DNA of 35,436 nucleotides from a virus, in IMG/VR virus record IMGVR_UViG_3300046454_000075, positions 1 through 35,436 of that record, one strand, 5' to 3'. Of this stretch, positions 9,819-32,541 are shown in pieces (the stretch's first letter is position 1; each line of letters opens with the position of its first letter). The notes beneath the pieces are model-generated. The model searched no databases. It was given only the letters and a program-made list of their open reading frames with translations, and had not been told where the DNA came from. The position numbers were made by a program, and so were the translations under genes.

Positions 9819-9829
9819 CAAGGGGAGAC

Positions 9830-11677: not shown

Positions 11678-11693
11678 TGTGGACCACGTCCCT

Positions 11694-11720
11694 CCGGTTA
11701 CGGTACGCGCCGGTAACCGG
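11694..11720 (+). terminator. Hairpin after the polymerase gene
   Basis: CCGGTTAC (11694-11701) pairs with GTAACCGG (11713-11720), 17 bp after the stop codon. No clear T run follows. Palindrome copy 5 begins nine bases later. Confidence 0.5.
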
Positions 11721-11729
11721 GGGGTTCAT

Positions 11730-11752
11730 CACCTACTAGTCACTAGTAGGTG
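11730..11752. repeat. 23-bp palindrome, copy 5
   Basis: A perfect consensus copy. It is one of two copies not followed closely by a coding gene; instead a 390-bp non-coding stretch follows. Confidence 0.9.
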
Positions 11753-12142
11753 GTCGCCGAAAAAAGTTGGCAACCAACTACGCCAACTAGTACGTGACGC
11801 CCCGACCATGATCGAACATTCGATTCCTCGACCCGGGGCCGTGACACGCCGGTGACCACCTTCATTCCCAAGGATGAACCCCGGTAACGCCTTCGATCTT
11901 GCTACAACGTTCCTCGCCGCACGTGGTCTAACCAGCGAAAACGCCCGTTGCGTGTAACCCGCACCGAGACGTACGTTCCACCCACGCCACGACGGCACGG
12001 CCCGATCAACCCCCGTCACAGCGGACCCCGGAACGGGGTTGATTCGTCGTGCCAACTTCCAGACCTGCGCCTTACTACCCCCTTGCCTAAAACAGGTAGT
12101 GGCGCACGTCACACGGTCTAACGACCAGTCGGCCCCGTTCCG
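11753..12142. other. Structured non-coding region between polymerase and sigma-like genes
   Basis: No convincing gene is present on either strand; the minus-strand frame across it has poor codon use. It starts with an A6 run and the dyad AGTTGG-CAA-CCAACT (11766-11780). It then holds a long imperfect dyad: GGCACG (11994-11999) and ATCAACCCC (12005-12013) against GGGGTTGAT (12035-12043) and CGTGCC (12048-12053). A third dyad pairs ACTACC with GGTAGT near 12075-12101. The position beside the replication genes would fit an origin or a regulatory RNA, but neither is demonstrated. Confidence 0.5.
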
Positions 12143-12162
12143 CGTAAGCCCTTGCGCTCAAG
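12143..12162 (+). promoter_or_regulatory. Phage promoter-like motif D (diverged)
   Basis: CGTAAGCCCTTGCGCTCAAG, the most diverged of the five copies, 33 bp before the sigma-like gene. If the sigma factor reads this motif, it would control its own gene. Confidence 0.55.
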
Positions 12163-12195
12163 GCGCAGCAACGCGAAACGAACGGAGCACGACCC

Positions 12196-13017
12196 ATGAT
12201 TGACCTGACCCCCGAGCAGATCGCCGCCGCTAAGGCCCTCGACATTCCGGCGACCGAGGCCGTGTGTAAGGCCACCGAGGAGCGCGTGACGCAACTCGCC
12301 CGGCAGTACGCCACGACCGGCGGGCGCGTGAACGCCGACCTCGCCGAGGAGTTGGCGCAGATAGGCCGTATCGCCGTGTGGGAGTCGCTTAGCCGGTTCG
12401 CCGGTACCTCGGTGGCCCAGTTCTTCACGTTCGTCGACACGACGCTTAAGGGCGTCATGAGCGACGCGCGAAAGGTCGAGACTCGCCCGGGTGTCACCCG
12501 GCAGGCTGCCGCCGATTTCGAGCGGGCGTTGAGCATGGCGGGCGGCGACCCGTACGAGGCCGAAAAGGTCGCGCAGTCGGCGGCGATGGGTGCCCGCAAG
12601 ATGAGCCGGGAAATGGCGTACGCCGCGCGTCTGTCGTGGCAGGGAGTCGAGTACCTCGACGCTCCCATGGGCGGCAACGACGGCGACGAATCGGTAACGC
12701 TGGGCGAGAAAATCGCATCGAGCATCGGCCTTACGGATGACCTCATTGAGGACGCCGACATCGTTTCGTTCCGGAAGCGCGACATTCGCGACCGGGTTCG
12801 GGCGATCGTCGCCCGCATGGGGGAACAGCGCCGGTACGTGCTGGCCGGAACCTACGGACTCCCGTTCGCCCCGTACTACGGCGAGGACCACGACGCCGAA
12901 ATGGCTGCCGACCTCGGGGTTCCGCGTACGCAGATAAAGGCCATTCGGTGGCACGCAAAGGATTCGTTCCGCAAGTCGTGGCTTAAGGGCGCGAGCGCCG
13001 AAGAAATCGCCGCCTAA
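12196..13017 (+). CDS. Phage sigma-70-family-like transcription factor
   Basis: The 273-aa protein has two blocks typical of sigma factors. Residues about 50-95 (DLAEELAQIGRIAVWESLSRF, then FFTFVDTTLKGVMSDARK) match the region 2 core, where the usual form is 'DLxQEGxIGLxxAxxxFD...F..Y....I'. Residues about 190-265 resemble region 4, with RDRVRAIVARMGEQRRYVLAG followed by a helix-turn-helix (DAEMAADLGVPRTQIKAIRWH). It would direct host RNA polymerase to phage promoters. Motif D lies 33 bp upstream. ATG 12196 follows ACGGAGCACGACCC. It could instead be another HTH regulator, but the paired region 2 and 4 signals favour a sigma factor. No search was possible. Confidence 0.65.
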   Translation: MIDLTPEQIAAAKALDIPATEAVCKATEERVTQLARQYATTGGRVNADLAEELAQIGRIAVWESLSRFAGTSVAQFFTFVDTTLKGVMSDARKVETRPGVTRQAAADFERALSMAGGDPYEAEKVAQSAAMGARKMSREMAYAARLSWQGVEYLDAPMGGNDGDESVTLGEKIASSIGLTDDLIEDADIVSFRKRDIRDRVRAIVARMGEQRRYVLAGTYGLPFAPYYGEDHDAEMAADLGVPRTQIKAIRWHAKDSFRKSWLKGASAEEIAA

Positions 13018-13052
13018 GCACCGCACACATTCCGCGAATCGGAGGGGAAACC

Positions 13053-13274
13053 ATGCTCGCCACGTACAAGTTCAACGCTGCCTCGGGCCACACCATCGAG
13101 GCCACCCGCACGGCCACCGGATACGACGTCTACACGATGAACGCCGAGGGCCGCACGATTTCGACCGTCGCCCTTTCCCCGCTCGCCGCTGAAATTCTCT
13201 TCGCTGAACTGGAAGCGGCGCGACCTGCGCCCGCCCCTAAGCGCGCTGCCGCTAAGCGAAAGGCCGTCCGGTGA
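13053..13274 (+). CDS. Small unknown protein with basic Ala/Lys tail
   Basis: The 73-aa protein starts at ATG 13053 after GGAGGGGAAACC, one of the strongest ribosome sites in the window. The N-terminal 50 residues look like a compact beta-rich domain (MLATYKFNAASGHTIEATRT...). The tail is rich in Ala, Pro, Lys and Arg (APAPKRAAAKRKAVR) and may contact nucleic acid. Its TGA overlaps the GTG of a 23-residue membrane peptide. It follows the sigma-like gene by 35 bp and is probably co-transcribed with it. No family is recognised. Confidence 0.7.
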   Translation: MLATYKFNAASGHTIEATRTATGYDVYTMNAEGRTISTVALSPLAAEILFAELEAARPAPAPKRAAAKRKAVR

Positions 13275-13342
13275 CTCGGGCCCTGTCATTCCTCGCGGGG
13301 GTCATCCTCGCCATGCATTTCATGACTCAGTACGCCTACTAG
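13271..13342 (+). CDS. 23-residue membrane micropeptide
   Basis: The GTG start overlaps the upstream TGA (GTGA) and the TAG leads directly into the GGGGAG ribosome site of the next gene. The peptide begins MTRALSFLAGVILAMHF and consists of one hydrophobic helix. It is the third such coupled tiny peptide in the early region (see 6701 and 6772). The length is too short for statistical support; the overlap and the hydrophobic pattern are the only evidence. Confidence 0.45.
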   Translation: MTRALSFLAGVILAMHFMTQYAY

Positions 13343-13353
13343 GGGAGAATTCA

Positions 13354-13710
13354 ATGTTCTACGACTTTCGACAGAACAACAGCGGTGGCGGTTTCGACTT
13401 CAACGCCGAGGACGGCATTTCCTGTCACGTCATCATCGAGGCGAACAGCGCCGAGGACGCGAACGAGCGGGCGGAAAGCCTCGGTCTGTATTTCGACGGC
13501 TGCGACGACGGCCGCGACTGCGAATGCTGCGGCGACCGGTGGTACTCGGCATGGGGCGAGGGTGACGACGTGCCGTCGACGTATGGAACGCCGGTCGGCG
13601 AGGCCGAGGCGTACATGTTGTGGGCGCCCGAGGGCGTGGCAGAGGCGTACGTTCACTACCTCGACGGCCGAATAGAGGCGGTCGACATGCGCAAGCGCAA
13701 GACGCTGTAA
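13354..13710 (+). CDS. Conserved-looking actinophage protein with Cys cluster
   Basis: The 118-aa acidic protein starts at ATG 13354 after GGGGAGAATTCA. The FDFNAEDGISCHVIIEANSAEDANERAE segment and the DCECCGDRWY cluster are familiar from many unnamed Streptomyces phage proteins. The Cys-x-Cys-Cys group, with an earlier Cys, could bind a metal. No function is known to me. It closes the sigma-like gene unit: a 17-bp perfect hairpin with seven Ts, built on palindrome copy 6, starts six bases after the stop. Confidence 0.75.
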   Translation: MFYDFRQNNSGGGFDFNAEDGISCHVIIEANSAEDANERAESLGLYFDGCDDGRDCECCGDRWYSAWGEGDDVPSTYGTPVGEAEAYMLWAPEGVAEAYVHYLDGRIEAVDMRKRKTL

Positions 13711-13715
13711 CGCCC

Positions 13716-13757
13716 GAGGGGCACCTACTAGTCACTAGTAGGTGCCCCTCTTTTTTT
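13716..13757 (+). terminator. Intrinsic terminator built on palindrome copy 6
   Basis: GAGGGG precedes and CCCCTC follows the 23-bp palindrome, giving a perfect 17-bp stem with a single-base centre, then seven Ts (13751-13757). This is the clearest case of the palindrome serving as a terminator stem. Confidence 0.85.
13722..13744. repeat. 23-bp palindrome, copy 6
   Basis: A perfect consensus copy embedded in the terminator hairpin at 13716-13757. It is about 170 bp from the next gene. Confidence 0.9.
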
Positions 13758-13914
13758 ATTGGTAAAGACTTTCGGAGCTAAACTAACCTTTACGCGATCC
13801 ACGCATCCTTACCAAACCCTTTACCGCTGGCCACCTGCCGGAGTATGTGATTCCGCATACTTACGTTGAGAGTTCAAACGTGCCCAATCGGGCACCGGGG
13901 TGCAAGAGGCGCCA
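13758..13914. promoter_or_regulatory. AT-rich intergenic control region
   Basis: This is among the least GC-rich stretches of the window. It contains three dyads: TTGGTAA (from 13760) with TTACCAA near 13810; AGTATG and CATACT around TGATTCCG near 13850; and GTGCCC-AATC-GGGCAC near 13880. It separates the early region from the accessory genes before the integrase and could hold host-type promoters or operators. No consensus is clear enough to name one. Confidence 0.4.
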
Positions 13915-14442
13915 ATGATCATGGAAGTGTGCGGGATACCTGTTCCCGCCGATACCCCCACCGTCGGCCTATGGGTCGAGGTACCCGTCAAGCGGGCGTG
14001 TACCTGCGACCGTCCTACCTGCGACCCGTGGGACTGGAGGCCCGTCGACTGCCCTACAGCGGCCCCCGAGGAGTACGTCTATAACGCGCACGACCTAGAC
14101 CGTGTCCTGCGCTCGTACGGCCATGTGTGGGCGCTCACGGCCGCTCGAACCATGAGCCATAACCGCTTCCGCCTCATTGCCCGGGGGCTGTTCTCGTCAC
14201 GCATCATCGGTACGTACGTGTGGACATGGAACGCGACCTACGGCCGGTACGAGCCCGAGGCCGAACCGTGGAACGTGTGGGACGCCCGATGCGCCGAGCG
14301 CGTTAACGGCCGTGTCCCGTACACCCTTTCGGGCCTCAACCGCCTAGCCCGAGGCGACCAGGGGCCCTATGTGCGCGACAAGGAGGACGTACCGCACGAG
14401 GGGGCGCTAGCCGACTTCTACGGCCTCGGGAGCGCTGCCTAG
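13915..14442 (+). CDS. Unknown accessory protein (175 aa)
   Basis: ATG 13915 is preferred because AAGAGG lies 5 bases upstream; GTG 13900 and ATG 13921 are alternatives. A Cys-rich segment (CTCDRPTCDPWDWRPVDC, residues about 30-47) may bind zinc. The remainder has many Trp, Tyr and Arg residues (TYVWTWNATYGRY) and ends in a short acidic part. No helix-turn-helix is clear, so I do not call it a repressor, although its place between early genes and integrase would suit an immunity gene. A terminator follows the stop. Confidence 0.6.
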   Translation: MIMEVCGIPVPADTPTVGLWVEVPVKRACTCDRPTCDPWDWRPVDCPTAAPEEYVYNAHDLDRVLRSYGHVWALTAARTMSHNRFRLIARGLFSSRIIGTYVWTWNATYGRYEPEAEPWNVWDARCAERVNGRVPYTLSGLNRLARGDQGPYVRDKEDVPHEGALADFYGLGSAA

Positions 14443-18677: not shown

Positions 18678-18753
18678 GCCCACCTAGCCCAACGGCAGAG
18701 GCAACGGTCTTAGGAACCGTGCAGTCTCGGTTCGAATCCGAGGATGGGCACCA
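18678..18753 (+). tRNA. tRNA with anticodon TAG (Leu, CUA codons), short variable loop
   Basis: The acceptor stem GCCCACC/GATGGGC has one mismatch, and discriminator A plus an encoded CCA end follow. The anticodon stem ACGGT/ACCGT is perfect around the loop CTTAGGA (anticodon TAG). The T arm CTCGG-TTCGAAT-CCGAG is perfect. The variable loop is only five bases, whereas bacterial tRNA-Leu normally has a long variable arm, so the amino acid is inferred from the anticodon. The late genes here use CTA often. Confidence 0.85.
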
Positions 18754-20600: not shown

Positions 20601-22115
20601 ATGATTGACCCCCTTTACCTCACGCCGGTTGCCCCCGAGGAAATGGTTTCCGGCGACGGAACCGACTTTGTGGATTTCACACAGTTTCTACGGGTCACTA
20701 AGGATTCCGTCGGCGGAAGTGCGGGCGAGATTCTCGTAATGCGTCCGTGGCAAGTCGAGCTAATGGACCGACTTTACGCCCGACGCGCCGACGGACGACT
20801 AAAGCACCGCACAGCGCTTATCGGAATGCCGCGAAAGAACGGTAAGAGTGCGCTAGCCGCCGGTATCGCGCTGTTCGGCCTCGCATTCGGCCCCCGAGGC
20901 GGCGAGGTGTTCTCTTGCGCTGGCGACAAGGAACAGGCGCGCATTGTTTTCTCGACCACTAAGCAAATGGTCGAAATGGAGCCTCAATTTGGCTCGATGT
21001 TCAAGACTTACCGTGACGCTATCGAGTTTCCGGCGACGGGCAGCGTGTACCGCGTGCTTTCCGCTGAGGCGTACACGAAAGAGGGACTAAACCCGCACCT
21101 CGTGATTTTCGACGAGGTGCACGTTCAGCCGAACCGTGAACTCTGGGACGTTATGGCGCTCGCATCGGGCGCCCGACGTGAACCGATGATGGTCGGCATT
21201 ACCACAGCGGGAGTCAAGACCGATTCCATGGGCGGTGATAGCACGTGCTATCAGCTCTATCAGCATGGAATGCGCGTCGCCTCGGGCGAGGTAGCCGACC
21301 CCGGGTTTTTCATGTCGTGGTGGGGTGCCCCCGAGGGCGCCGACCACACCGACCCCGCTGTCTGGGAAGCCTCGAACCCCGGTTTTGACGACATTGTGTC
21401 GCGCGAGGATTTCGAGTCTGCCGTGTTGCGCACTCCCGAGGCGGAGTTTCGTACTAAGCGCCTTAACCAATGGGTGAGCACCGCGCAAGCGTGGCTGCCC
21501 GGCGGTTCGTGGGAAGCGTGCGAGGACGCCGAGGCGGAGATTCCCGACGGCGCAGAGGTAGTAATCGGGTTCGATGGGTCGTTCAACAACGACTCCACAG
21601 CGATCACGGTTGCTACGTGCCCGCAGGGCGAGGACGACAAGCCCCATATAGCCGTCGTCGCAGCGTGGGAGAAACCGCAGGGCACGGGCAACGATTGGGC
21701 CGTCCCGATTCTCGACGTCGAGGCGGAAATTAGGGCGGCGTGCCGTAAGTGGCAGGTTCGCGAAATCGTCTGTGACCCCTATCGCTGGGCGCGCACATAC
21801 CAGGTTCTTGAAGATGAGGGTTTGCCCGTCGTCGAGTACCCGCAGTCGCCCGCCCGAATGGTTCCGGCGACACAGCGGTTTTACGAGTCGGTCATGAATA
21901 AGACCGTGACGCATTCCGGCGACCAGCGCCTAGCGCGGCACCTCGGCAACTGTGTGATCCGCACGGATAACCGAGGCAGCCGGATCACTAAGGACGCCAA
22001 AAACTCCCCTCGGAAAATCGACCTCGCCGTTTCGGCCGTAATGGCGCTCGATCGTGCTTGCCAGGAACCGGAACCCGAGGCAATTCCGCAGTTCTTTTCC
22101 TGGGCCGACCTATAG
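20601..22115 (+). CDS. terL: Terminase large subunit
   Basis: The 504-aa protein has the packaging ATPase (GMPRKNGKSALAAGIALFGLA as Walker A near residue 75; VIFDEVH as Walker B near 170) and the RNase H-like nuclease domain beginning IGFDGSFNNDSTAI near 322, which carries the first catalytic Asp. It pumps DNA into the prohead and cuts it. ATG 20601 follows AAGGGGTGACGC. Seven leucine codons here are CTA by my reading (for example at 20688, 20760, 20799 and 20853), matching the phage tRNA with anticodon TAG. Confidence 0.95.
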   Translation: MIDPLYLTPVAPEEMVSGDGTDFVDFTQFLRVTKDSVGGSAGEILVMRPWQVELMDRLYARRADGRLKHRTALIGMPRKNGKSALAAGIALFGLAFGPRGGEVFSCAGDKEQARIVFSTTKQMVEMEPQFGSMFKTYRDAIEFPATGSVYRVLSAEAYTKEGLNPHLVIFDEVHVQPNRELWDVMALASGARREPMMVGITTAGVKTDSMGGDSTCYQLYQHGMRVASGEVADPGFFMSWWGAPEGADHTDPAVWEASNPGFDDIVSREDFESAVLRTPEAEFRTKRLNQWVSTAQAWLPGGSWEACEDAEAEIPDGAEVVIGFDGSFNNDSTAITVATCPQGEDDKPHIAVVAAWEKPQGTGNDWAVPILDVEAEIRAACRKWQVREIVCDPYRWARTYQVLEDEGLPVVEYPQSPARMVPATQRFYESVMNKTVTHSGDQRLARHLGNCVIRTDNRGSRITKDAKNSPRKIDLAVSAVMALDRACQEPEPEAIPQFFSWADL

Positions 22116-22122
22116 GAGCGCC

Positions 22123-22323
22123 ATGGACGAAAAGGAAACGCCGACATGGCGAAAGCGACTAAGGGGCATGCGTGCCCGAATACCGCGTAGCGCTACAGCC
22201 GACGCATTCGACGTAAGCGGCCTCGGCTGCCTAGTCGGCGCGGCGTGGTGGTGGCAACCCATTGTCGGTCTTGTCGCCCTCGGCGCTGCGTTGCTGATAG
22301 CCGGGTGGGTGACAAGTGATTAG
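22123..22323 (+). CDS. Small membrane protein between terminase and portal
   Basis: The 66-aa protein has a basic N-terminal half (WRKRLRGMRARIPRSA) and one long hydrophobic segment (residues about 33-62, LGCLVGAAWWWQPIVGLVAL) ending WVTSD. ATG 22123 is preferred for its TAGGAGCGCC site over an earlier GTG in the same frame. It overlaps the portal start by eight bases. Small membrane proteins at this position are common in Streptomyces HK97-like phages; the role is unknown. Confidence 0.75.
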   Translation: MDEKETPTWRKRLRGMRARIPRSATADAFDVSGLGCLVGAAWWWQPIVGLVALGAALLIAGWVTSD

Positions 22324-23554
22324 GCGCGCTGTTCAAAAGCGCATGTACGCGCCGTCGGGTGGCGGCGACCCTTGGGCGATCCCCTCGAACGGGTCGCTAC
22401 AGGCGATTACAGCGGCGGGTGTGCCGGTCACCGACGAAACGGCCATGCAGCTACTCGCGGTGTCGGCGTCGGTCCGCATTCTCTCGGATACGGTCGCCGG
22501 TCTGCCTTTCGACGCTGTCAAGGCCAACGGGACCGTGCGGAACACGATCGAACCCCCGCCGGGCATTGTGGCCGACCCGTTCGGCGGCACGAATGACAGC
22601 AGATTCCCGACACGACGCCTCGGCCTTTCCCAGCTAATGGTTTCGCTGTTGCTGCGCGGTAACGCGTACATGTTGGTCCTGTCCCGTGACCGAATGAACC
22701 GGCCTACTCGACTGCGGGTACTGCACCCCGACCGGGTCCGCTGTGAGTTCAACGACAAGGGCGAGCGCGTCTACGAAATCGACCGACACCCGGTCGACTC
22801 AGAAGACGTCGTGCACATTCTCGGCCTTTCATACCCCGAGGCAGCGACCGGAATTAGCGTGCTGTCGTACGCCCGGAACGCGATTGGCCTCGGCCTCGCC
22901 GCCGAGGAGTTCGGGTCGAGGTTCTTCGGTTCCGGCGCTCACATGACCGGCATCATCGAGGTGCCGGGCGACCTCGACAAAGAACGGGCCCGAGGGCTGA
23001 AAGAGGGGTTCACGTCGTCCCATGCGGGCGTCAAGAACTCTCACACGGTCGGCGTCCTTTCCGGTGGCGCACAGTGGAAGCCAATCAGCGTAAGCCCCGA
23101 GGATGCTCAGTTCCTCGGCACGCGCGCTGCGCAGAACCTCGATATAGCCATGTTGTTCGGGATTCCGCCCCACATGTTGGGCCAGGTTGACAAAACCACG
23201 TCGTGGGGAACCGGCATCGAACAACAGGGTCTCGGGTTCCTTACCTACACCCTCGGCCCATGGCTAGGCAGGTTCGAGGACGCGTTTAGCGCCATGCTGC
23301 CTAAGCCTCAAACGGCCCGGTTCAACGTTGACGGCCTACTCCGCACCGATGCCGCCGGACGATACGCCGTTTACTCCGTCGCCCGATCTGCGGGCATTCT
23401 CACGCCGAACGAAATTCGCGCACTAGAGAACTTCCCCGCTGTGGATGGCGGCGACAACATCGACGCCCCGCTGAACAGCAATGTGAAGCCACTTAAGGAC
23501 ATGCAGGCGGGCAAGTCGGCACCTTCCGCAGACGCACTAGGGGCGGTTTTGTAG
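22316..23554 (+). CDS. Portal protein (HK97 family)
   Basis: The 412-aa protein matches the HK97-type portal family: LLAVSASVRILSDTVAGLPFD near the start, LLRGNAYMLVL, a crown/wing region with DVVHILGLSYPE, and the conserved FGIPPHMLGQ followed by EQQGLGFLTYTLGPWLGRFE. The C-terminus is Gly/Asp-rich. It forms the dodecameric ring through which DNA enters. GTG 22316 overlaps the upstream gene; ATG 22344 is an alternative. The stop overlaps the protease GTG by one base. Confidence 0.95.
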   Translation: MIRRAVQKRMYAPSGGGDPWAIPSNGSLQAITAAGVPVTDETAMQLLAVSASVRILSDTVAGLPFDAVKANGTVRNTIEPPPGIVADPFGGTNDSRFPTRRLGLSQLMVSLLLRGNAYMLVLSRDRMNRPTRLRVLHPDRVRCEFNDKGERVYEIDRHPVDSEDVVHILGLSYPEAATGISVLSYARNAIGLGLAAEEFGSRFFGSGAHMTGIIEVPGDLDKERARGLKEGFTSSHAGVKNSHTVGVLSGGAQWKPISVSPEDAQFLGTRAAQNLDIAMLFGIPPHMLGQVDKTTSWGTGIEQQGLGFLTYTLGPWLGRFEDAFSAMLPKPQTARFNVDGLLRTDAAGRYAVYSVARSAGILTPNEIRALENFPAVDGGDNIDAPLNSNVKPLKDMQAGKSAPSADALGAVL

Positions 23555-24273
23555 TGACAGATTTTTCTACCCGCTCACAGCGGCTAAATGTGGTCGAGAA
23601 CCGGCAGCGCCCTTTCGAGGGAATGGAAATCCGGGCTTTCGACACCGGGACCGGCGGCGAGAACCTTAGGTTCACCGGCTATGCCTCGGTGACTAACGCG
23701 CCCTACGAAATGGAAGATTTCCTAGGGTCGTACACCGAACGGATTATGCCGGGCGCGTTCGCTAAGTCCCTCGCTTCCGGCGCAGATGTGCCGTTCAAGG
23801 TGAACCACGGCGGTATCACTCTGGCCCGAACTAAGTCGGGAACCATGCGCCTCGCCGAGGATTCAACGGGGCTGCATGTTGAGGCCGACCTCGACCCCCG
23901 GTCGCCGGACGTTCAGGCACTCCGCAGCGCAATGGAGCGGGGCGACCTCGACGAAATGAGTTTCGCGTTTCGCGTGAACTCGCAAGAGTGGTCGCCCGAC
24001 TGGTCGCAGCGCGACATTACCGAGGTCGACCTAAACAAGGGGGACGTTAGCGCTGTCAACTATGGCGCGAATCCTGCTACGGCGGGTGCGGTACTGCGCT
24101 CACGTGACATTGCGCTACTGCATGCCCGAGGCGCTATTTCCGCCGAACAGGCCGAGGCGCTAATGCGCATGTTTCGGCAGGGCGAGGACGCCCGTTCCGA
24201 GGCCGAACCCGAGGCAACGCCCGGCGTCGACCTTTCCCTATTCGCGACGCGACTACGCGCGCTGAATTTCTAA
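23554..24273 (+). CDS. Prohead protease (HK97/S78 family)
   Basis: The 239-aa protein has the S78 core: FTGYASVTNAPYEMEDFLGSYTERIMPGAF, VPFKVNHGG with the catalytic His, and DEMSFAFRV with the catalytic Ser, followed by the strand with ITEVDLNKGDVSAVNYGANP. It matures the prohead by cleaving the capsid protein. The C-terminal tail is acidic. The GTG start overlaps the last base of the portal stop (TAGTG). A palindrome (copy 9) separates it from the capsid gene, which suggests separate control of capsid expression. Confidence 0.93.
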   Translation: MTDFSTRSQRLNVVENRQRPFEGMEIRAFDTGTGGENLRFTGYASVTNAPYEMEDFLGSYTERIMPGAFAKSLASGADVPFKVNHGGITLARTKSGTMRLAEDSTGLHVEADLDPRSPDVQALRSAMERGDLDEMSFAFRVNSQEWSPDWSQRDITEVDLNKGDVSAVNYGANPATAGAVLRSRDIALLHARGAISAEQAEALMRMFRQGEDARSEAEPEATPGVDLSLFATRLRALNF

Positions 24274-24277
24274 CCCC

Positions 24278-24300
24278 CACCTACTAGTCACTAGTAGGTG
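24278..24300. repeat. 23-bp palindrome, copy 9
   Basis: A perfect consensus copy between the protease and the major capsid genes, 20 bp before the preferred TTG start. Confidence 0.9.
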
Positions 24301-24320
24301 CCTCCCCTATGGAGCACATT

Positions 24321-25670
24321 TTGAATAAGCGCGAAATGATCGCCGACCTACTGGCGAAGCGTTCCGCCCTTAAGGCCGACCTAGACGGCCTGGTCGACGG
24401 CGCTACCGCCGAAAAGCGTTCTCTTTCCGAGGACGAGTCGGCCCGGTTCGATAAGGGCGAGGCCGAGATTCGGGCTTTCGACGAGCGCGTTAAGGAACTC
24501 GACGCGCAGGTTCAGGCCGACGCCGCAGCCGCCGACATGGCTAAGCGCTACGCCCCTAAGGCGGGCGACGGCGTCAAGTCCGAGCCCGAGATCTACCGTT
24601 CCGGCAACGGTGGCCGTTCCTACTTCCGCGACCTCCACCTAGCCCGTTCCAAGGGTGACCGGGACGCCGCCGACCGACTGATTCGGAACAACCGGGGCCG
24701 TGCGACCGAACAGCGTGCGCCGCTGAGCACCTCTAACGGCACCGGTGGCGAGTTTGTGCCCCCGCTGTGGCTGGAGAACCAGTTCGTCAAGTTCGCCCGT
24801 GCGGGTCGCATTACCGCGAACCTAACGCCGACTTTCCCGCTACCGGCGGGCACGGATTCCATCAACGTGCCTAAGGTCGCGACCGGTACGGCCGTTGCGG
24901 TGCAGTCGACGCAGAACAGCGCGGTGAACGAGACCGACCTCACCACGACCTCGATTTCGTCCAGCGTGACGACCGTTGCGGGTGGCCAGACTGTGAGCCT
25001 CCAGCTCATCGAGCAGTCGCCGCTAAACATCGACGACGTGGTTCTAGGTGACCTCGCCGCCGACTATGCCCGGCAGCTAAACACCCTCGTTCTGAGCGGT
25101 TCCGGCACCTCGGGGCAGCCGACCGGCATTATGACCCTTGCGGGTACTAACGCCATCGATGTTCCGTCCGCCGGTTTCACCGTCGCTAAGTTCTACTCGG
25201 CGGTGGCGAACGCCATTCAGAAGGTTCACACGAACCGGTTCCTCCCGCCGGACACGATCATCATGCACCCGGTTCGCTGGGCGTGGCTTTGCTCGCAGTC
25301 CGACTCCACCGGTCGCCCGCTTGTTGTTCCGGCGGCTAACAGCCCGATGAACGGCCTAGCCAATCAGGGCGAGGTCGCCGCACAGGGTTACGTCGGCACC
25401 ATGCTCGGGCTGCCGGTCTACGTCGACGCGCTCATTCCGACCAACCTGACGGCCGATGCCGGTTCGGGTGAGGACGCGGTTATCGTCGCGCGTATGGCCG
25501 ACCTCATGCTGTGGGAGTCGCACGTTCGGGCCGAGGCGTTCGAGCAGACCTACGCGTCGAACATGAGCGTCTTTATCCGCCTCTACAACTACGTCTCGTT
25601 CCAGCCTGCCCGGTACCCCAAGAGCATCTCTGTTCTGACCGGTAACGGCCTCGCTGCCCCGACGTTCTAA
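24321..25670 (+). CDS. Major capsid protein (HK97 fold)
   Basis: The protein of about 449 aa has an N-terminal coiled-coil scaffold (delta) domain (residues about 1-95, with LLAKRSALKADLDGL and a predicted cleavage zone near GGRSYFRD). The HK97 shell follows (FVPPLWLENQFVKFARAGR, LNTLVLSGSGTSGQPTGIM, the LMLWESHVRAEAFEQ region). TTG 24321 is preferred because GGAG lies six bases upstream; ATG 24309 lies on top of that site and has no site of its own. Nine CTA leucine codons are visible. It is the main head protein, cleaved by the protease at 23554-24273. Confidence 0.93.
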   Translation: MNKREMIADLLAKRSALKADLDGLVDGATAEKRSLSEDESARFDKGEAEIRAFDERVKELDAQVQADAAAADMAKRYAPKAGDGVKSEPEIYRSGNGGRSYFRDLHLARSKGDRDAADRLIRNNRGRATEQRAPLSTSNGTGGEFVPPLWLENQFVKFARAGRITANLTPTFPLPAGTDSINVPKVATGTAVAVQSTQNSAVNETDLTTTSISSSVTTVAGGQTVSLQLIEQSPLNIDDVVLGDLAADYARQLNTLVLSGSGTSGQPTGIMTLAGTNAIDVPSAGFTVAKFYSAVANAIQKVHTNRFLPPDTIIMHPVRWAWLCSQSDSTGRPLVVPAANSPMNGLANQGEVAAQGYVGTMLGLPVYVDALIPTNLTADAGSGEDAVIVARMADLMLWESHVRAEAFEQTYASNMSVFIRLYNYVSFQPARYPKSISVLTGNGLAAPTF

Positions 25671-25688
25671 GCCCTTTAGGTGGTGGCT

Positions 25689-26216
25689 ATGGCTACGCAT
25701 TACGACCATTGGCGGCGCGCTGTTCGCCGGTCTATGGGCCATAGCCACCACCGGGGCCATGCCGTTTCCCGTTTCGTTCATTCGCACCGGCACGGGAAAC
25801 GGCCCACTAAGCCACACGGCCGTAAGGCCCATGCAGCGCACCATAAGAAGCACCACAAGCGGCGGCACTATCACCTAAAGCACCACCGCCACCTAAAGCA
25901 CCACCGGCACCTAAAGCATCACCACCGCCACTACCGCCACCGCACGCACCTTAAGCACCGCCGACACACCCGGCACCTAAGTGCGGCTGCCCGCATGGCG
26001 CGGAAGATTCTTAGGCGGCTGCACAATCACCGGCACTTGCACACGCATCGCAAGCACCGCCGACACACGACGCACCACCACAAGCACCGGCACTTGCACC
26101 GCAAGCACAAGCGGCACGCTGCCCAGCATCGCCGACGGCACTTGCACCACCGCCGACACACGCACCACCACCACCGCCGGGGGTCGCACCACCGCCGACA
26201 CCGCCGTTACCGATAG
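25689..26216 (+). CDS. Histidine/arginine/lysine-rich structural-region protein
   Basis: The 175-aa protein is about one third histidine (59 by my count), and most of the rest is Arg and Lys. Its first 35 residues are more mixed (MATHYDHWRRAVRRSMGHSHHRG). A tandem HLKHHR repeat (18-bp DNA units from 25872) follows. A short helical linker (SAAARMARKILRRL, about 98-111) leads to a second His-rich half ending RRHRRYR. ATG 25689 has AGGTGG five bases upstream, 18 bp after the capsid gene. Leu codons are CTA, as in the neighbouring late genes, which argues for real coding. It could bind packaged DNA, metal ions or the capsid surface; none is shown. I know of no named family. Confidence 0.8.
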   Translation: MATHYDHWRRAVRRSMGHSHHRGHAVSRFVHSHRHGKRPTKPHGRKAHAAHHKKHHKRRHYHLKHHRHLKHHRHLKHHHRHYRHRTHLKHRRHTRHLSAAARMARKILRRLHNHRHLHTHRKHRRHTTHHHKHRHLHRKHKRHAAQHRRRHLHHRRHTHHHHRRGSHHRRHRRYR

Positions 26217-26225
26217 GGGCCAACA

Positions 26226-27128
26226 TTGACCACACAGACGATTTATTTCGTCGGGCAAGACGTCGGCCTCATGTGCACCCCGCTGGATGACCAGGGCAAC
26301 GCCACCACGGGCGCCCTGGTCGCCTCTGTGACCGTCACAAGCCCGTCCGGGGCCATCACCTCGCCCTCGGTGAGTTCGGCCGGTAGCGGGGCGTACAGCG
26401 CCGTTGTGCCGTCTGTCTCGGCCGGTACGTGGCTTGTCCGATGGACGGCGACCGGCACGAATGGCGGGGTTCCCGTCGGGTGGGCGTTTGAAGATCAGTT
26501 CACCGTGCGCCCGCAGGGCGTTGAACAGATGGTCGACCTAATCTCGGTTAAGAAACACCTCAATATCCCGCTGAATGACACTCGGCAGGATGAGGAATTG
26601 CAGGGGTTCATACTCACAGCGGCAGATCAGGCCCGTGACGTGTGCGGCCCGTTCCTGCCCGAGGTGCACACACAATTTTTCGACGGGGGACTGTCGACCA
26701 TTCAGCCGGATTGGTTGCCCCTCGCCTCGGTGCAGTCGGTCACCGAGTACTACGGCCTTTCGGGGTTCGTTCTCACTGAACAGAACCTCGACGCGCAGAT
26801 GAACGCATTTGCCTTCACGGTCGACTACACCACGGGGCAGATAACCCGCCGCACGTTCGGCGGAGGTGCTGCCACGTTCGCACTCGGCGACAAGAACGTA
26901 AAGGTCGTCTACACCGCCGGAACGGGCGGGCAAATCCCGTTCACCATCCGCCTAGGCGCCCTCGAACTGATTCGGCACCTCTGGCAGCAGACGCAGAACG
27001 GCGGACGGCCTAAGTTCGGTAGCGCCGGAATCGACGGCGACTCTATGGGCGTTCCTATGGGGTTTGCGCTGCCAGACCGTGTGATCGAGCTATGGGGCCC
27101 TAAGCGCCGACCCCCGGGAATCGCGTAA
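26226..27128 (+). CDS. Head-tail connector with N-terminal Ig-like domain
   Basis: The 300-aa protein joins two parts. Residues about 1-100 look like a beta-sandwich (Thr/Ser/Val-rich, SVTVTSPSGAITSPSVSSAG). Residues about 105-300 match the gp6-type connector family: DLISVKKHLNIPLNDTRQDEELQGFILTAADQ, DWLPLASVQSVTEYYG, IRLGALELIRHLWQQTQ. It would dock under the portal. TTG 26226 is used because AGGGG lies six bases upstream. The fused Ig-like part might decorate the neck. Confidence 0.78.
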   Translation: MTTQTIYFVGQDVGLMCTPLDDQGNATTGALVASVTVTSPSGAITSPSVSSAGSGAYSAVVPSVSAGTWLVRWTATGTNGGVPVGWAFEDQFTVRPQGVEQMVDLISVKKHLNIPLNDTRQDEELQGFILTAADQARDVCGPFLPEVHTQFFDGGLSTIQPDWLPLASVQSVTEYYGLSGFVLTEQNLDAQMNAFAFTVDYTTGQITRRTFGGGAATFALGDKNVKVVYTAGTGGQIPFTIRLGALELIRHLWQQTQNGGRPKFGSAGIDGDSMGVPMGFALPDRVIELWGPKRRPPGIA

Positions 27129-27595
27129 TGCCCATACCTAGCTCGACCTCGCCCGCCGTACGGGCGTACCTGTTCAACCAACTTACAGCGAACCTCGCGC
27201 CCGACCCGAACGTCACGACTGCCCGCCTGTTGGTGTGCTACGACGAACCGGGACCCGACCAGCCGGACGACATTGTTTCGGTCGGCAAGGTGAGTCGGCA
27301 TATCGGCGTCAATTCCATGGTCGGCGGGGGTGGCGCCGGATGGCTCGACGAGCGGTACACGATTGAGATCGAAATCGACGTGTACCGAGGCAACGACGAT
27401 CCGCAGGCCGTCTATCAGCGCGCAAGCGACCTCGCCGACGCCGTCATTTCGGTTATCCGCACCGACCCGTCCCTAGGTGGCCACGTCCTTACGGCGCGCC
27501 CGCAAACGTCCTCGCATGAGGTCACGTGGGATGACCAGCACATGGGGCGTCACGCAACGGTCGTGATCGAGGTCGAGTGCTTCCAGCGCATCTAG
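27128..27595 (+). CDS. Tail terminator / neck protein (tentative)
   Basis: The 155-aa protein begins MPIPSSTSPAVRAYLFNQLTANL, has a helix-strand pattern, and ends VTWDDQHMGRHATVVIEVEC. Size, order (after the connector, before the tail tube) and the RYTIEIEIDVYRGNDDPQAVYQRASDLADAV segment resemble the tail terminator proteins that cap the tail tube. The ATG overlaps the upstream stop (TAATG). The stop is followed at once by palindrome copy 10. Confidence 0.65.
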   Translation: MPIPSSTSPAVRAYLFNQLTANLAPDPNVTTARLLVCYDEPGPDQPDDIVSVGKVSRHIGVNSMVGGGGAGWLDERYTIEIEIDVYRGNDDPQAVYQRASDLADAVISVIRTDPSLGGHVLTARPQTSSHEVTWDDQHMGRHATVVIEVECFQRI

Positions 27596-27596
27596 T

Positions 27597-27619
27597 CACC
27601 TACTAGTCACTAGTAGGTG
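27597..27619. repeat. 23-bp palindrome, copy 10
   Basis: A perfect consensus copy that begins one base after the stop of the tail terminator gene and lies 19 bp before the TTG at 27639. Confidence 0.9.
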
Positions 27620-27638
27620 CTCGACCCGAGGAACCCCC

Positions 27639-27845
27639 TTGCCTCTTTTCTCGTATTCCGGCACCGATGAACGCTATTACCCGACGCTCGGCGTCGAGGC
27701 TGCCCCGGGTGTTGTGCTCGACCTCGCCGAGGCGCCCGACGACGGCCGATGGGAGTCGGCGGCAACTCCGCAGGATTCTGCGCCTCTGCCGTTGGAGAAC
27801 CCGCAGCCCGAGGCGGCTGCCGACCCCGCACCTACGAATCTGTAA
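27639..27845 (+). CDS. Small unknown tail-region protein
   Basis: The 68-aa acidic protein starts at TTG after GAGGAACCCCC. It begins MPLFSYSGTDERYYPTLGVEAAPGVVLDLAEAPDDGRW and then becomes Pro/Ala/Glu-rich. The 'G-x-x-x-R-Y-Y-P' and 'A-P-G' pattern with a 'DG-R-W' end appears in small proteins encoded just before the tail tube in other siphophages, whose role is not known. The tail tube gene follows nine bases after its stop. Confidence 0.7.
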   Translation: MPLFSYSGTDERYYPTLGVEAAPGVVLDLAEAPDDGRWESAATPQDSAPLPLENPQPEAAADPAPTNL

Positions 27846-27854
27846 GGGCTGCAC

Positions 27855-28820
27855 ATGCCGCATTCTTCAAATCTCTCTTTCCTCGGCATTGCCAAGGAAA
27901 CGATCCTAGGAACGGCGGTCCCTGCGACCGCGTTTATTCCGGTCGACAAGCCGACCCCCAAGGATTCGCTAACCCTTCTTCAGGACAAGGGTCTACGCGG
28001 TTCCATGGTCGAGGTTTACAACGAAATCGCCGGTCCGAAGCATTCAACCTTTGATTTCGGCGGCGACGTTTTCCCGGACACCGTTGGTTGGATGCTCGCG
28101 GGTGTCCTCGGCGACGTGACGACCACGGGCGCTAGTGCCCCGTTCACGCACGCCGTTTCCACGCTGAACAGCGCCGACGGGCAGCCTAAGAGTTACACCC
28201 TCACCGACTACTACGCGACCGGCACACGGCAGTATGCGGGCGCTAAGTTCTCGGAACTTGCGTTCAAGTTCAACGGCGACTCGATGCTTACCTACACGGC
28301 CAAGGCAACGGCGTTCGCCTCGACGACCACGACCGTTCCGACGCCATCGTTTACGGCTGTTGCGCCTGTCGCTGCATGGACCGGTGCTGTAACCATCGGC
28401 GGTGTCGCCTCTACGGCCGTCCTCGACGGCGAGGTCACCATTAAGCGCCCCGTGACCGTGATTCAGCCGGTCGCCGGTTCTCAGAACCCGGGCAACATTT
28501 GGTCGGGCCCCGTGACGGTCGACGGCAAGATAACGCTTGTGATGGAGGACGACACGCAGCTAACCAACTACCTGAACAACACGCAGCCCTCGCTAGACGT
28601 CAATTTCCAGGCGGGTGCGGGTGCGGCGGCGATTCAGGTCAAGCTACACATGACGAACGTCGTTTACTCCGCTGCCGACATCGGGCGCGGTAAGGATTAC
28701 GTCGAAATCGCCGTGTCGTTCAGCGCTCGCGCGAACTCTACGGATATCGGCGCCTCGGGCGGCTACTCGCCTATCAAGGCCACCATTCAGAACGCGATTG
28801 CATCGGGAACTTACGCCTAA
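27855..28820 (+). CDS. Major tail (tube) protein
   Basis: The 321-aa protein opens LSFLGIAKETILGTAVPATAFIPVDKPTPKD, a typical start for phage tail tube proteins, and is beta-rich and low in charge, with repeated TDYYATGTRQYAGAKFSELAFKFN and late DYVEIAVSFSARANS segments. A central Ig-like insertion (TPSFTAVAPVAAWTGAVTIGG) is possible. Hexamers would stack to form the tube. ATG 27855 has AAGG upstream. It stops at the TAATG overlap with the chaperone gene. Confidence 0.88.
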   Translation: MPHSSNLSFLGIAKETILGTAVPATAFIPVDKPTPKDSLTLLQDKGLRGSMVEVYNEIAGPKHSTFDFGGDVFPDTVGWMLAGVLGDVTTTGASAPFTHAVSTLNSADGQPKSYTLTDYYATGTRQYAGAKFSELAFKFNGDSMLTYTAKATAFASTTTTVPTPSFTAVAPVAAWTGAVTIGGVASTAVLDGEVTIKRPVTVIQPVAGSQNPGNIWSGPVTVDGKITLVMEDDTQLTNYLNNTQPSLDVNFQAGAGAAAIQVKLHMTNVVYSAADIGRGKDYVEIAVSFSARANSTDIGASGGYSPIKATIQNAIASGTYA

Positions 28821-29257
28821 TGATTCACATCACTCTGCCCTCGGGCGCTTCCGCCGACCTGCGCCCCGTGTCCGAGGTCACCGAACGGCAGCGTCGGCCT
28901 ATCAAGCGCATTCAGGCCCAGCTAGCCGCGCGCCCCGCGTTCGCCGCCGCTGTGAAGGAAGCGCAGGCCATTGCCAAGGCTGCGGGTACCGTCCTCGACC
29001 CCGAGGCGGAACTACGGATCGCCGCCGGTATGGGCGACGCATTCGACCTTCTAGAGGACCTGAACGACTCCCTAGTGGCCGCGCTGGTCGCCGGTTGGTC
29101 CTATGGCTTTGCCGTGACCGTTGACGGCGTTCAGGACGTGCCCGGGGCCGACCTCGACGCGCTACGCAAGGAATGCGCCCCGTACCTGCCGCAGCTACTC
29201 CCGGACTTTGAGCCGTCGGCGGACGCTGATTCCCCTATCGCTCCCTCTGGCGCCTAA
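28820..29257 (+). CDS. Tail assembly chaperone, short form
   Basis: The 145-aa acidic protein lies between tail tube and tape measure genes, where lambda gpG-like chaperones are always found. It starts MIHITLPSGASADLRPVSEV and is mostly helical. Within its last nine codons the -1 frame is open and continues for 78 codons, so a longer fusion protein can be made by ribosomal frameshifting, as in lambda G/GT. The TAATG start overlap couples it to the tail tube gene. Confidence 0.8.
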   Translation: MIHITLPSGASADLRPVSEVTERQRRPIKRIQAQLAARPAFAAAVKEAQAIAKAAGTVLDPEAELRIAAGMGDAFDLLEDLNDSLVAALVAGWSYGFAVTVDGVQDVPGADLDALRKECAPYLPQLLPDFEPSADADSPIAPSGA

Positions 29258-29463
29258 GCCAGGCTCTAGAGGGGACTTTCGAGTTTCCCGCCGAGGCGCT
29301 GCCTCTTGAGGATTACCGGACGTGGCGGCTATGCACCCTCATGGGTTGCCGCCCGTCCGACCTCGACGACGAATCGGCCGTGAAACTGGATTGGCTACTA
29401 GCCGTAGATGACGCCGTGTCCCGTGCCCGCGCTAACAAGGAAAGGGCGGCGGCGAATGGCTAA
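29230..29463 (+). CDS. Tail assembly chaperone, -1 frameshift extension
   Basis: In the -1 frame relative to 28820-29257, the sequence is open from 29230 (after a stop at 29227) to TAA 29461. It encodes a well-composed segment (ALEGTFEFPAEALPLEDYRTW, CRPSDLDDESAVKLDWLLA). No ATG or GTG lies near its beginning, so a frameshift between 29230 and 29257 is required. TTCCCCT at 29230-29236 is the most likely slip site, though it is not a classic heptamer. The end overlaps the next gene by eight bases. Confidence 0.75.
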   Translation, partial: FPYRSLWRLSQALEGTFEFPAEALPLEDYRTWRLCTLMGCRPSDLDDESAVKLDWLLAVDDAVSRARANKERAAANG

Positions 29464-29956
29464 TGAGGCGTTCGGCGCCCTAATCGAGGGTGCCAAGGCT
29501 GCCGAGGCGGAATTGATCGCCATGGATAAGCGGGTTGACCTCGCGACGGTCGCCGCCATTAAGAAAGTGCAGTCACTCACTCGGGCCCGTGTCCGGTCGA
29601 GGCTGCGAGGTCGCGCCCGCTGGAATCACCGTGGGCAAGGTGTGGCGTTCCCGTTCATTACGAGAGTGGATATCAACGGTGGCGGTTCCGGCCACGTGAA
29701 CCGTTCGGGTGGCCCGGGGCGCTTTACCGGCACGCTGAACGGCGCCGTGCGCGCTAGCCGTAAGCCCCGCCTAGAGGGCAAGGGCACCTATTCCGGCGTC
29801 GTGTTTATGGGCAGCAAAGTTGCCCCCGTCGCGAACGTCTATAAGGCCCGAGAAGAGGCTAATCACCCGTACTTTGCCCCGGGCGTGAATTCGGCCAAAC
29901 CGAAAATGCCCATCGTGTGGGAAAAGGCATGGGCGAAAGCCACCGCAACCAAATAA
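29456..29956 (+). CDS. HK97 gp10-like neck/tail completion protein (tentative)
   Basis: The 166-aa basic protein begins MANEAFGALIEGAKAAEAEL, with an N-terminal helix. The body is Arg/Gly-rich (RGRARWNHRGQGVAFPFITRV), and the end PYFAPGVNSAKPKMPIVWEKAWAKA resembles HK97 gp10-type proteins. The location just before the tape measure gene is not the usual place for gp10, so a minor tail role is possible. ATG 29456 (AAGGAAAGG upstream) is preferred to an earlier start at 29408 in the same frame, which would overlap the chaperone extension more. Confidence 0.6.
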   Translation: MANEAFGALIEGAKAAEAELIAMDKRVDLATVAAIKKVQSLTRARVRSRLRGRARWNHRGQGVAFPFITRVDINGGGSGHVNRSGGPGRFTGTLNGAVRASRKPRLEGKGTYSGVVFMGSKVAPVANVYKAREEANHPYFAPGVNSAKPKMPIVWEKAWAKATATK

Positions 29957-29967
29957 GGGGGTAACCG

Positions 29968-32541
29968 ATGGGTGCGTTGCCCCCGATCTTTATCGAGTTC
30001 CTAGGTAAGAAGACTGGGTTTTCCGCCACCGCAAAGGGTGTCCGCACCGAGCTAGCCGAGGTCGAGGCGCAGGGCGGCGGGCACATGAAGCGCCTTAGCG
30101 GCGTTGCGAGTGCTGCCCTACTCGGAATCGGCGTGGCGGCGGGCGTTACCGCTGTCAAGACAATTCACATGGCTGCCGACTTTCAGACTTCCATGACTCG
30201 TGTTCGCACGGGTGCGGGTGAGTCGGCGCAGAATATGAAACTCGTGTCAGACGGCGTCCTCGCCATGGCGGGGCAAGTCGGCCAGTCGACACAGCAGCTA
30301 ACGCAGGGCCTCTATACGGTCGAGTCTGCCGGTTACCACGGCAGTGCAGCGCTACAGGTACTCAAGACGTCTGCGCAGGGTGCAAAGGTGGGCGCTGCCG
30401 ACCTCGGCACGGTTACCGACGCTGTGACGACGGCGCTAAACGCGTATCACCTAAGCGCCAAGGATGCCGTACCGACCATGAATGCGTTGGTTGCGACCGA
30501 GGCCGAGGGCAAAACCAACATGGAAGCCCTAGCCGGTTCCATGGCCTCGATTCTCCCCGTGGCCTCGGCGGCACATGTCGGCCTTAACGAGGTTCTCGGC
30601 GCCATGGCCACAATGACGTCGCAGGGTACTTCCGCCGACGTGGCAGCGACCTACCTACGGCAGACGATCGGGCAACTCTCGAACGCCACGCCCAAGGCTG
30701 CCGCCACTATGAAGGGGCTAGGGCTCGACGCCAACAAGGTTGCGCTAGAGCTAGGTCACAAGGGCCTCGCCGCCACGCTGGAAACCCTTACGGGCGCCAT
30801 CAAAAACAAGATGGGTCCCGGCGGCACGGTCCTTATCGACACGCTGCAAAAAGCGTCGAAGAATTCCAAGGACTTTAACGGCCAGCTCAACAAGATGAGC
30901 GGTTCCCAAAAGACGTACATCGGCGCCCTCGCGACCATGGTCGGCGGCACCAAATCCATGATGGGTGCGCTACAGCTAACCGGCTCGCATATGAAGACGT
31001 TTAAGGACGACGTCAAGGGCGTTGGCGACCACGTGCGAAAGGGCGGTAAGTCGGTCGAGGGTTGGGCCGACGTACAGAAGACGTTCAATCAGCGCATGGC
31101 CGAGGCCAAGGGTTCCATGCAGTCGCTCGGAATCTCAATCGGCCTCGCGCTGTTGCCCGCAGCGACAAAGCTAATGGCGGGGTTCGCGAAGATAGCGGGG
31201 TTCCTTGCGAGGAATCACACGCTGTTGTTGCTGTTCGCCGCAGGGCTTACCGCAGTCGCAATCGGTCTAGCGGCGGCGAAAATCGCCACGATCGAATGGA
31301 CCACGGCACTAGAGATAAACCCGGTCTTCCTGATAGCTACGGCAATCGCGCTTTTGGTGTTCGGCCTAGTCGAATTGGTCCTCCACTGGAAGCAGGTAGC
31401 GGCGTGGCTTTCCGGCGCGTGGAAGTCAGTCGTTCACGGCGTCGGCGAGGCTTGGCATTGGCTAGCGGGCGAAACGTCGAGTGCCTGGCACGACATTGTG
31501 CATTGGGTAACGTCGGCGTGGAATTCCGTAGCGTCGTTCTTTTCCTCGGCGTGGCACGCTGTGGCCGACCCGATAGTGAATGCCTGGCATTGGGTGTCCC
31601 GGGTCACCTCGACGGTTTGGAACGCAATAGCCGGGTTCTTCAAAAAGTGGTGGCCCCTGCTGTTCGTGATTTTCCTGCCGTTCGTTGCGCTTATCGTCGC
31701 GCTGTGGAATCACTTCCATAAGCAGATCGAGGCGACGGCCAAAACCGTTTGGAACGCCCTAGCCGGGTTTTTCGAGTCCATATGGCACGGCCTAGCGGAC
31801 GCGGCAAAGTTCATATGGGGGCTCATAAAGTCGTACATCGTGCAGCCGGTCGAGGAAGTGTGGCGCTACCTCAAGGCAGGTTGGCACACCTTTGCCGGGT
31901 GGATGTCTACGGCGTGGCACGGCATTAGCTCCGTAGCGTCCTCGATTTGGGGCTCAATCAAACGCAACATGATTCAGCCGATAACCGATACCTGGCACAC
32001 GATCACTCGAATCATGGGCCAGGTAAAGGACGCCATTTCCGGCAAGCTGCATGAGGCGTTCAACGCCGTAAGGGACGTCGGTAAGTGGTTCGAGTCCATC
32101 GGTACGTGGATTGTTCACGGCATCGTTTCCGGCATCGAGGGTGCGGCCGGTTCGCTGTTCGGGTCCCTTAAGGATCTCGCCTCGAACGCGCTGAGTTCGG
32201 CTAAGTCGTTCCTCGGCATCAACTCGCCCTCGCGTGAGTTCGCCGAACAGGTCGGCCACTGGATTCCCCACGGTATCGCCGAGGGTGTCCGCAACTCCGC
32301 GCACGCTGTGAAGGCTGCCGTAAATGAGGCGACCGGCGCGGCCCTCGGGCGCGTCAACGTCGGCGGGCAGATCTCGCTAGGCATGGGCACCTCGGGCGGC
32401 TACGGCGGCACTACGACCGTTATTAACGTGCACGTCGAGGGTTCCGTCATGGCGGAACAAGACCTACGGGACGTGCTACAGCGCGAAATGTTGCGCCTCG
32501 GCGCCCGCAACTCGGGCACGTGGCAGCCGTACCGACGCTAA
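29968..32541 (+). CDS. Tape measure protein
   Basis: The 857-aa protein is the longest complete tail gene. It has the phage tail tape measure signature (AADFQTSMTRVRTGAGESAQNMKLV, TQGLYTVESAGYHGSAALQVLKTSAQGA) and hydrophobic, probably membrane-inserting segments at residues about 395-490. A Trp-rich repeat zone (about 475-670) follows, with AW/TVW at roughly 11-residue intervals. It ends in the usual Gly-rich tail after INSPSREFAEQVGHWIPHGIAEG. Its length sets the length of the tail. ATG 29968 has AAGGGGGTAACCG upstream. CTA leucine codons are frequent. Confidence 0.93.
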   Translation: MGALPPIFIEFLGKKTGFSATAKGVRTELAEVEAQGGGHMKRLSGVASAALLGIGVAAGVTAVKTIHMAADFQTSMTRVRTGAGESAQNMKLVSDGVLAMAGQVGQSTQQLTQGLYTVESAGYHGSAALQVLKTSAQGAKVGAADLGTVTDAVTTALNAYHLSAKDAVPTMNALVATEAEGKTNMEALAGSMASILPVASAAHVGLNEVLGAMATMTSQGTSADVAATYLRQTIGQLSNATPKAAATMKGLGLDANKVALELGHKGLAATLETLTGAIKNKMGPGGTVLIDTLQKASKNSKDFNGQLNKMSGSQKTYIGALATMVGGTKSMMGALQLTGSHMKTFKDDVKGVGDHVRKGGKSVEGWADVQKTFNQRMAEAKGSMQSLGISIGLALLPAATKLMAGFAKIAGFLARNHTLLLLFAAGLTAVAIGLAAAKIATIEWTTALEINPVFLIATAIALLVFGLVELVLHWKQVAAWLSGAWKSVVHGVGEAWHWLAGETSSAWHDIVHWVTSAWNSVASFFSSAWHAVADPIVNAWHWVSRVTSTVWNAIAGFFKKWWPLLFVIFLPFVALIVALWNHFHKQIEATAKTVWNALAGFFESIWHGLADAAKFIWGLIKSYIVQPVEEVWRYLKAGWHTFAGWMSTAWHGISSVASSIWGSIKRNMIQPITDTWHTITRIMGQVKDAISGKLHEAFNAVRDVGKWFESIGTWIVHGIVSGIEGAAGSLFGSLKDLASNALSSAKSFLGINSPSREFAEQVGHWIPHGIAEGVRNSAHAVKAAVNEATGAALGRVNVGGQISLGMGTSGGYGGTTTVINVHVEGSVMAEQDLRDVLQREMLRLGARNSGTWQPYRR

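Follow-up and report, generated by a model that had tools for sequence, protein, structure and literature searches.

A gene for a strongly basic, His-rich protein of 175 aa lies directly behind the major capsid protein (MCP) gene of the phage studied here. Sequence comparisons indicate that it is a genuine gene and no low-complexity accident, and that it belongs to a real, new and narrowly distributed family of polycationic proteins with constant place and charge. The polycation start is predicted, with good support, to be locked by an RNA hairpin right behind the stop codon of the upstream gene, and this arrangement is conserved in most members.

The DNA analysed (hereafter the window) comprises 35,436 bases and is filed in IMG/VR as a virus record. 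Besides four tRNA genes and a gene for a serine recombinase, it has a head module that runs from terminase through portal, S78 protease, HK97-type MCP, polycation gene and head-tail adaptor to tail tube. The MCP gene (24309..25670, + strand) is the proposed upstream partner in translational coupling, and the adaptor gene (phrog_442; 26226..27128, + strand) forms the downstream edge of the slot. The nearest MCP from a cultured bacterium was found in Streptomyces sp. SDr-06 (570-kb contig, 82-83% identity), and the window phage is of Streptomyces type. Among 50,697 phage records the best MCP matches reached only ∼42%, so that these records hold no close isolate.

The polycation gene and its protein

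The polycation gene (25689..26216, + strand) begins with ATG at 25689, 18 nt past the MCP stop, and ends with TAG at 26214-26216; the first-pass annotation had placed it right after the MCP gene with correct coordinates, frame, start and stop. The product has a net charge of about +61 at pH 7 and contains 59 His (34%), 42 Arg, 15 Lys, 1 Asp, and no Glu or Cys. The His count agrees with the earlier estimate of about one third. The accompanying remark that nearly all other residues are Arg or Lys was overstated: of the 116 residues other than His, 57 are Arg or Lys, and the last third of the composition consists of Ala, Leu, Thr, Ser, Gly and a small number of other residue types. The tandem HLKHHR units that had been described are real, though few. 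They are encoded by an 18-nt repeat at 25872..25923 (+ strand; 2.9 copies, 94% match), and this stretch is missing from the 128-aa homologs in protein alignments.

AlphaFold modeling gave a short N-terminal helix (residues 2-17 in the window protein) and one long basic helix (residues 83-158, encoded by 25935..26162 on the + strand; residues 42-103 in the L045 homolog), the remainder of the models being unreliable. The pLDDT was ∼87-96 for residues 90-150 of the window protein; the models are weak, with 7-9 sequences behind them, and long basic helices are easily over-predicted. The long helix contains the best-aligned core of the family, HRTxLxHKRHxR...HRKHR. A design of two halves around a helical linker had been proposed. 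The less basic middle, HLSAAARMARKILRRLHN, does exist, but in the model from a nine-sequence alignment it falls within the single long helix and not between two halves.

The family had no match in Pfam, NCBIfam, PHROG, PADLOC or PDB, in line with the earlier statement that no described family was known. PHROG searches with the window protein at E up to 0.001, and with three homologs at E up to 1, gave no match. Searching for features of HK97-type decoration proteins returned no family match and no beta-rich fold, only predicted helices and low-confidence coil, and no His-rich phage head protein was found in the open-licence literature. A tblastn search of the 50,697 phage records with the window protein and the L045 homolog found nothing, a weak result given the low-complexity filter.

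Homologs in the MCP-adaptor slot

Related genes at the same position had been suggested as a check, and they were found. MCP scans gathered some 70 loci. Family members occupy the MCP-adaptor slot in the window, L049, L003/L004, L045/L047, L006, L041, L009, L007 and L016-L018; in L096, L097 and L101 the polycation gene follows a 66-67-aa gene, termed B, and precedes the adaptor. Taken together, viral contigs and Streptomycetaceae genomes with a homolog in the slot number about a dozen distinct cases. A position-blind profile, built from proteins only, was run in six frames over 395 Streptomycetaceae genomes. It matched three genomes, and each match fell within the MCP-adaptor interval: SDr-06 (with the 128-aa homolog L047), L108 (MCP-B-protein-adaptor) and L109 (MCP-protein-adaptor). 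With the same profile, 395 genomes drawn from the whole class yielded SDr-06 and nothing further.

Homology appears to go beyond shared composition and to extend across MCP clades. Against composition and dipeptide shuffles, pairwise z scores were 12.0 and 11.5 for L041-L097, 12.9 and 11.8 for the window protein and L045, and 7.1 and 6.3 for the window protein and L096; some distant pairs, e.g., L003-L016, were not above shuffles. On the MCP tree the family occurs in at least two separate clades, and it alternates with loci whose slot is empty or filled by B, by a 107-aa protein or by a beta-type protein.

The slot also looks like a swap site for small unrelated proteins (L008, L019, L023, L032, L036, L055, L098, and L106). 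The proteins swapped in belong to an NPINYARGL type (B), to an acidic type of 107-119 aa, or to a beta type with similarity to part of phrog_9522. Four other loci (L038, L084, L086, and L087) have a 219-244-aa frame between the MCP and the next structural genes, which is rich in Cys/His motifs and HNH-endonuclease-like by eye.

Near-complete contigs of 39.5-43 kb exist both with the gene (L004, L041, L045, L049, and L101) and without it (L005, L011, L019, L023, L024, L028, L029, L037, L043, and L044). The idea that the protein is needed to fit the genome was rejected on these grounds. Because relatives with the same ∼40-kb genome are without the gene, we regard it as accessory and the protein as not needed for packaging; the DNA compaction suggested in the first-pass annotation is weakened as an essential function.

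Selection on the coding sequence

The 40,367-bp contig L049 carries in the same place a version of 171 aa from the aligned start, 77% identical to the window protein. The dN/dS of this pair was 0.27, and two independent pairs gave 0.28 (L003 vs. L004) and 0.26 (L006 vs. L041), values that point to purifying selection. Neighboring structural genes in the window/L049 pair were somewhat lower, at 0.13-0.22. Indels among the relatives' polycation genes were multiples of three, so the frame was kept; frameshifts in close relatives, which would have spoken against the gene, were looked for and none was seen. Alignments of the window's close relatives show two recurring motifs, THYDxxRRxVRRxM at the N terminus and RRYR at the C terminus, the latter of which reaches more distant homologs too. 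Low complexity and the lack of a database family would suit a spurious open frame, but dN/dS of 0.2-0.3 in several pairs, frame-keeping indels and conserved terminal motifs make that explanation scarcely credible.

Constant charge and variable histidine content

Across the family (128-182 aa) the net charge is +38 to +65 at pH 7. The Arg+Lys fraction was 0.30-0.40 in all twelve members counted, among which Arg, Lys and His together reached up to 73% and acidic residues numbered 0-2, except in L016 with 8. His content, on the other hand, ranged from 12% to 34%. Since Arg+Lys is steady while His varies to this extent, the composition counts mark the polycation as the conserved trait and histidine as the variable one.

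This bears on the earlier proposal of a protein whose charge changes near pH 6-7 and which could bind metal, where the histidines would be the point and would serve Zn/Ni binding or pH-triggered DNA release. The window protein invites such a reading, with 34% His and a calculated charge that rises from about +61 at pH 7 to +110 at pH 5. In the L003/L004/L045 homologs, however, His falls to 12% (16 of 128 residues) with Arg+Lys constant, and the charge moves only from about +39 to +53 over the same pH range. Most of the His expansion falls within the repeat-rich stretch that short homologs miss, the 128-aa members being without most of this His-rich region. We therefore consider the pH- or metal-switch ideas, which rest on His, to be weakened and very unlikely to describe the family.

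A predicted hairpin at the start site

The Shine-Dalgarno sequence AGGTGG (25678-25683) and the ATG (25689-25691) are held by the 5′ arm of a perfect 15-nt inverted repeat (25679..25693, + strand). The 3′ arm (25738..25752, + strand), supported by the inverted repeat, the fold and covariation, lies within the coding sequence, in the codons of GHSHHR. The loop region (25692..25737, + strand) encodes the conserved N-terminal motif, here THYDxxRRAVRRSM, as seen in protein alignments. Folded in a 630-nt context, the stem pairs with a probability of 0.98-1.0. In five related sequences compared, 97% of cells were paired and 4 of the 15 pairs were changed on both sides, compared with 30-74% paired in controls slid by one to three columns; with so few sequences and a coding 3′ arm, this covariation is by itself no proof. 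Locked starts made of different sequence were found in L041, L009, L007, L109, L096, L097, and L101.

Opening the start (-13 to +5) took a median energy of 23.6 kcal/mol among 14 family members, compared with 10.0 kcal/mol for 120 other gene starts taken from these and related phages (Mann-Whitney p = 4e-7, an optimistic value, the members being related). The adaptor was excluded from the control set, as it takes the slot's place where the polycation gene is absent. L006 and L016 are exceptions, with opening energies of 4.7 and 12.2 kcal/mol, and have a strong hairpin between the upstream gene and the polycation gene instead. Among 13 members measured, 11 had a gap of 5-28 nt between the upstream stop and the polycation start, including members with B upstream. 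In L096, L097 and L101 the start lies 13-14 nt past the stop of B and the lock sits at this start; an element serving only the MCP 3′ end was rejected for this reason. No Rfam match was obtained, and no intrinsic-terminator-like site was seen behind the MCP gene in the window.

In two relatives where the gene is absent, L005 and L043, the adaptor start is locked by a very stable hairpin within the first 100 nt after the MCP stop (opening energies 23.7 and 30.2 kcal/mol; z about -7 vs. shuffles). The start lock is thus not unique to the polycation family.

Start-site hairpins that are opened by translation of the upstream gene have been reviewed (PMC12548453), and by analogy the layout suggests the RNA-unfolding model of translational coupling described there. 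According to a study cited in that review, structure directly past a stop can reduce coupling. The first-pass annotation had argued from the ribosome site, codon choice and operon position that the protein is made in quantity. With the Shine-Dalgarno sequence and start codon locked in a 15-bp hairpin, abundant synthesis finds no support, and the locked start argues against uncoupled high-level synthesis of the polycation.

Codon usage and repeated palindromes

Codon choice fared no better as a sign of expression. CTA accounts for 77 of 288 Leu codons (27%) in the late genes (20601-32541) vs. 14 of 238 (6%) in the early genes (84-14442), and the phage encodes a tRNA-Leu(UAG) at 18678-18753. CTA is thus common in all late genes of the phage, and as a mark of high expression of this one gene it was rejected. 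The CTA bias and the tRNA-Leu(UAG) may reflect a link between the tRNA and late expression, or modules of different origin.

A 23-bp palindrome, CACCTACTAGTCACTAGTAGGTG, occurs in eleven near-identical copies across the window (at 2251, 4637, 6492, 9783, 11730, 13722, 18766, 20081, 24278, 27597, and 32554; chance expectation 0), and the copies are intergenic in the places examined. Relatives have repeated palindromes of their own, e.g., CTTCACCCAAATTTGGGTGAAG in L041, GGTCCTCCTCACGTGAGGAGGACC in L029 and AACGTACGAATATTCGTACGTT in L006, often upstream of the MCP gene too, so that the copies in one phage change their sequence together. These repeats could be repressor operators, stoperators, or RNA punctuation.

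Possible function of the polycation

We tentatively favor, as a possibility somewhat short of probable, an accessory gene of the capsid module whose product is a polycationic, largely helical or disordered nucleic-acid binder, coupled to upstream translation and acting on DNA in the head. Ribosomes finishing the upstream structural gene would open the hairpin or re-enter at it. The polycation would then be made only late, together with the capsid protein and in lower amount, and coupling would prevent free production of a protein that binds any nucleic acid. It may enter the prohead or contact packaged DNA, neutralizing part of the DNA charge, and perhaps enters the cell with the DNA, like T4 internal proteins or viral protamine-like proteins; it would be helpful and not essential for packaging the 40-kb genome. 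As arithmetic only, a 40-kb genome has 80,000 phosphates, of which 415 copies at +61 would balance about one third and 60 copies ∼5%; the figure of 415 assumes one copy per MCP in a T=7 shell.

The strongest rival to the head reading is a late nucleic-acid binder that stays out of the virion and has its targets, mRNA, ribosomes or host DNA, inside the cell; it might, for instance, bring about host shut-off, serve as an RNA chaperone or regulate late translation, its own hairpin included. A polycationic composition suits any nucleic acid, an RNA lock would be apt for an effector that is dangerous inside the cell or for an RNA binder under its own control, and T4 internal proteins have themselves been suspected of such a role (PMC6071114). 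A free effector could sit anywhere in the genome, however, and the strict association with the capsid slot across clades makes this rival unlikely in our judgment. The slot itself also speaks for the capsid surface. Genes adjoining the MCP gene often encode decoration proteins, and the unrelated small proteins found in the slot, one of them similar to part of a tail protein, would fit a surface role equally well, which counts against the head role; one slot protein in relatives is of the beta type matching part of phrog_9522. In a decoration or cementing protein the His/Arg surface would bind the shell, the host surface or metal. Yet the polycation has no folded beta domain and no Cys, is of low complexity with a predicted helix, and carries a charge of +40 to +65 that is atypical for a cementing protein, all of which renders a surface role improbable.

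Gene position, small size and the predicted long helix would also be compatible with an assembly helper, scaffold-like or a packaging chaperone, that is gone before maturation. Against this, the MCP seems to have its own N-terminal scaffold-like region, a prohead protease is also present, and relatives assemble without the polycation, so that we hold such a helper to be highly doubtful. The most far-reaching version of the head reading would make these proteins virion-internal, His-tuned polycations of Streptomyces phages that condense or guard the genome in a pH- or metal-dependent manner, with the RNA lock tying synthesis of the toxic polycation to capsid translation, so that capsids would always be there to take it up; we rate it as rather improbable.

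Comparison with known systems

T4 internal proteins are small, highly basic and packaged with the DNA (PMC6071114). The polycation resembles IPI, IPII and IPIII in being a small, highly basic phage protein (128-182 aa and +38 to +65 at pH 7 across the family), and charge balancing of packaged DNA has been proposed for the T4 proteins (PMC6071114). Synthesis of these proteins is reported for both the early and the late phase, and their presence in the head has been shown (PMC6071114). Unlike them, the window polycation is His-rich, lies in the MCP-adaptor slot and has a locked start. No homology to T4 internal proteins was detected in PHROGs, Pfam or NCBIfam. T4 internal proteins have an N-terminal targeting peptide that the prohead protease removes; the polycation family has a conserved N-terminal motif in which no cleavage site could be assigned.

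Eukaryotic dsDNA viruses have protamine-like or small basic proteins that condense DNA (PMC6163548, PMC6669607). The family shares with them an extreme basic, low-complexity composition, with 30-40% Arg+Lys and, L016 excepted, almost no acidic residues, and would likewise condense DNA. It differs in belonging to a tailed phage with motor-driven packaging, in having His as frequent as Arg, and in being dispensable in relatives of equal genome size. On the evidence here the family does not appear to belong to either the T4 internal proteins or the viral protamines.

The start resembles the MS2 coat-lysis coupling (PMC12548453) in having structure over the start and a nearby upstream stop. Here, in contrast, the setting is the capsid operon of a DNA phage, the stem is a perfect 15 bp with its 3′ arm in the gene's own codons, and coupling is inferred; stable structure over the Shine-Dalgarno sequence and start, with compensatory changes, was found in the family with the exceptions of L006 and L016. 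Small, variable post-MCP genes of actinophages, e.g., Typha gp14 and prophiGD43A-5 gp85, occupy the same MCP-adaptor slot. Their products are Ala/Pro/Lys/Glu-rich and unrelated in sequence to the polycation.

Significance

In the polycation family His has expanded fast while the positive charge stayed constant. The RNA lock would clearly exemplify, for a DNA phage, how production of a protein that sticks to nucleic acids can be confined to the period of capsid protein synthesis. If the polycation is in the head, an HK97-type siphophage would add a protamine-like layer to its motor-packed genome, and this layer would be optional, so that its benefit would be directly testable by deletion.
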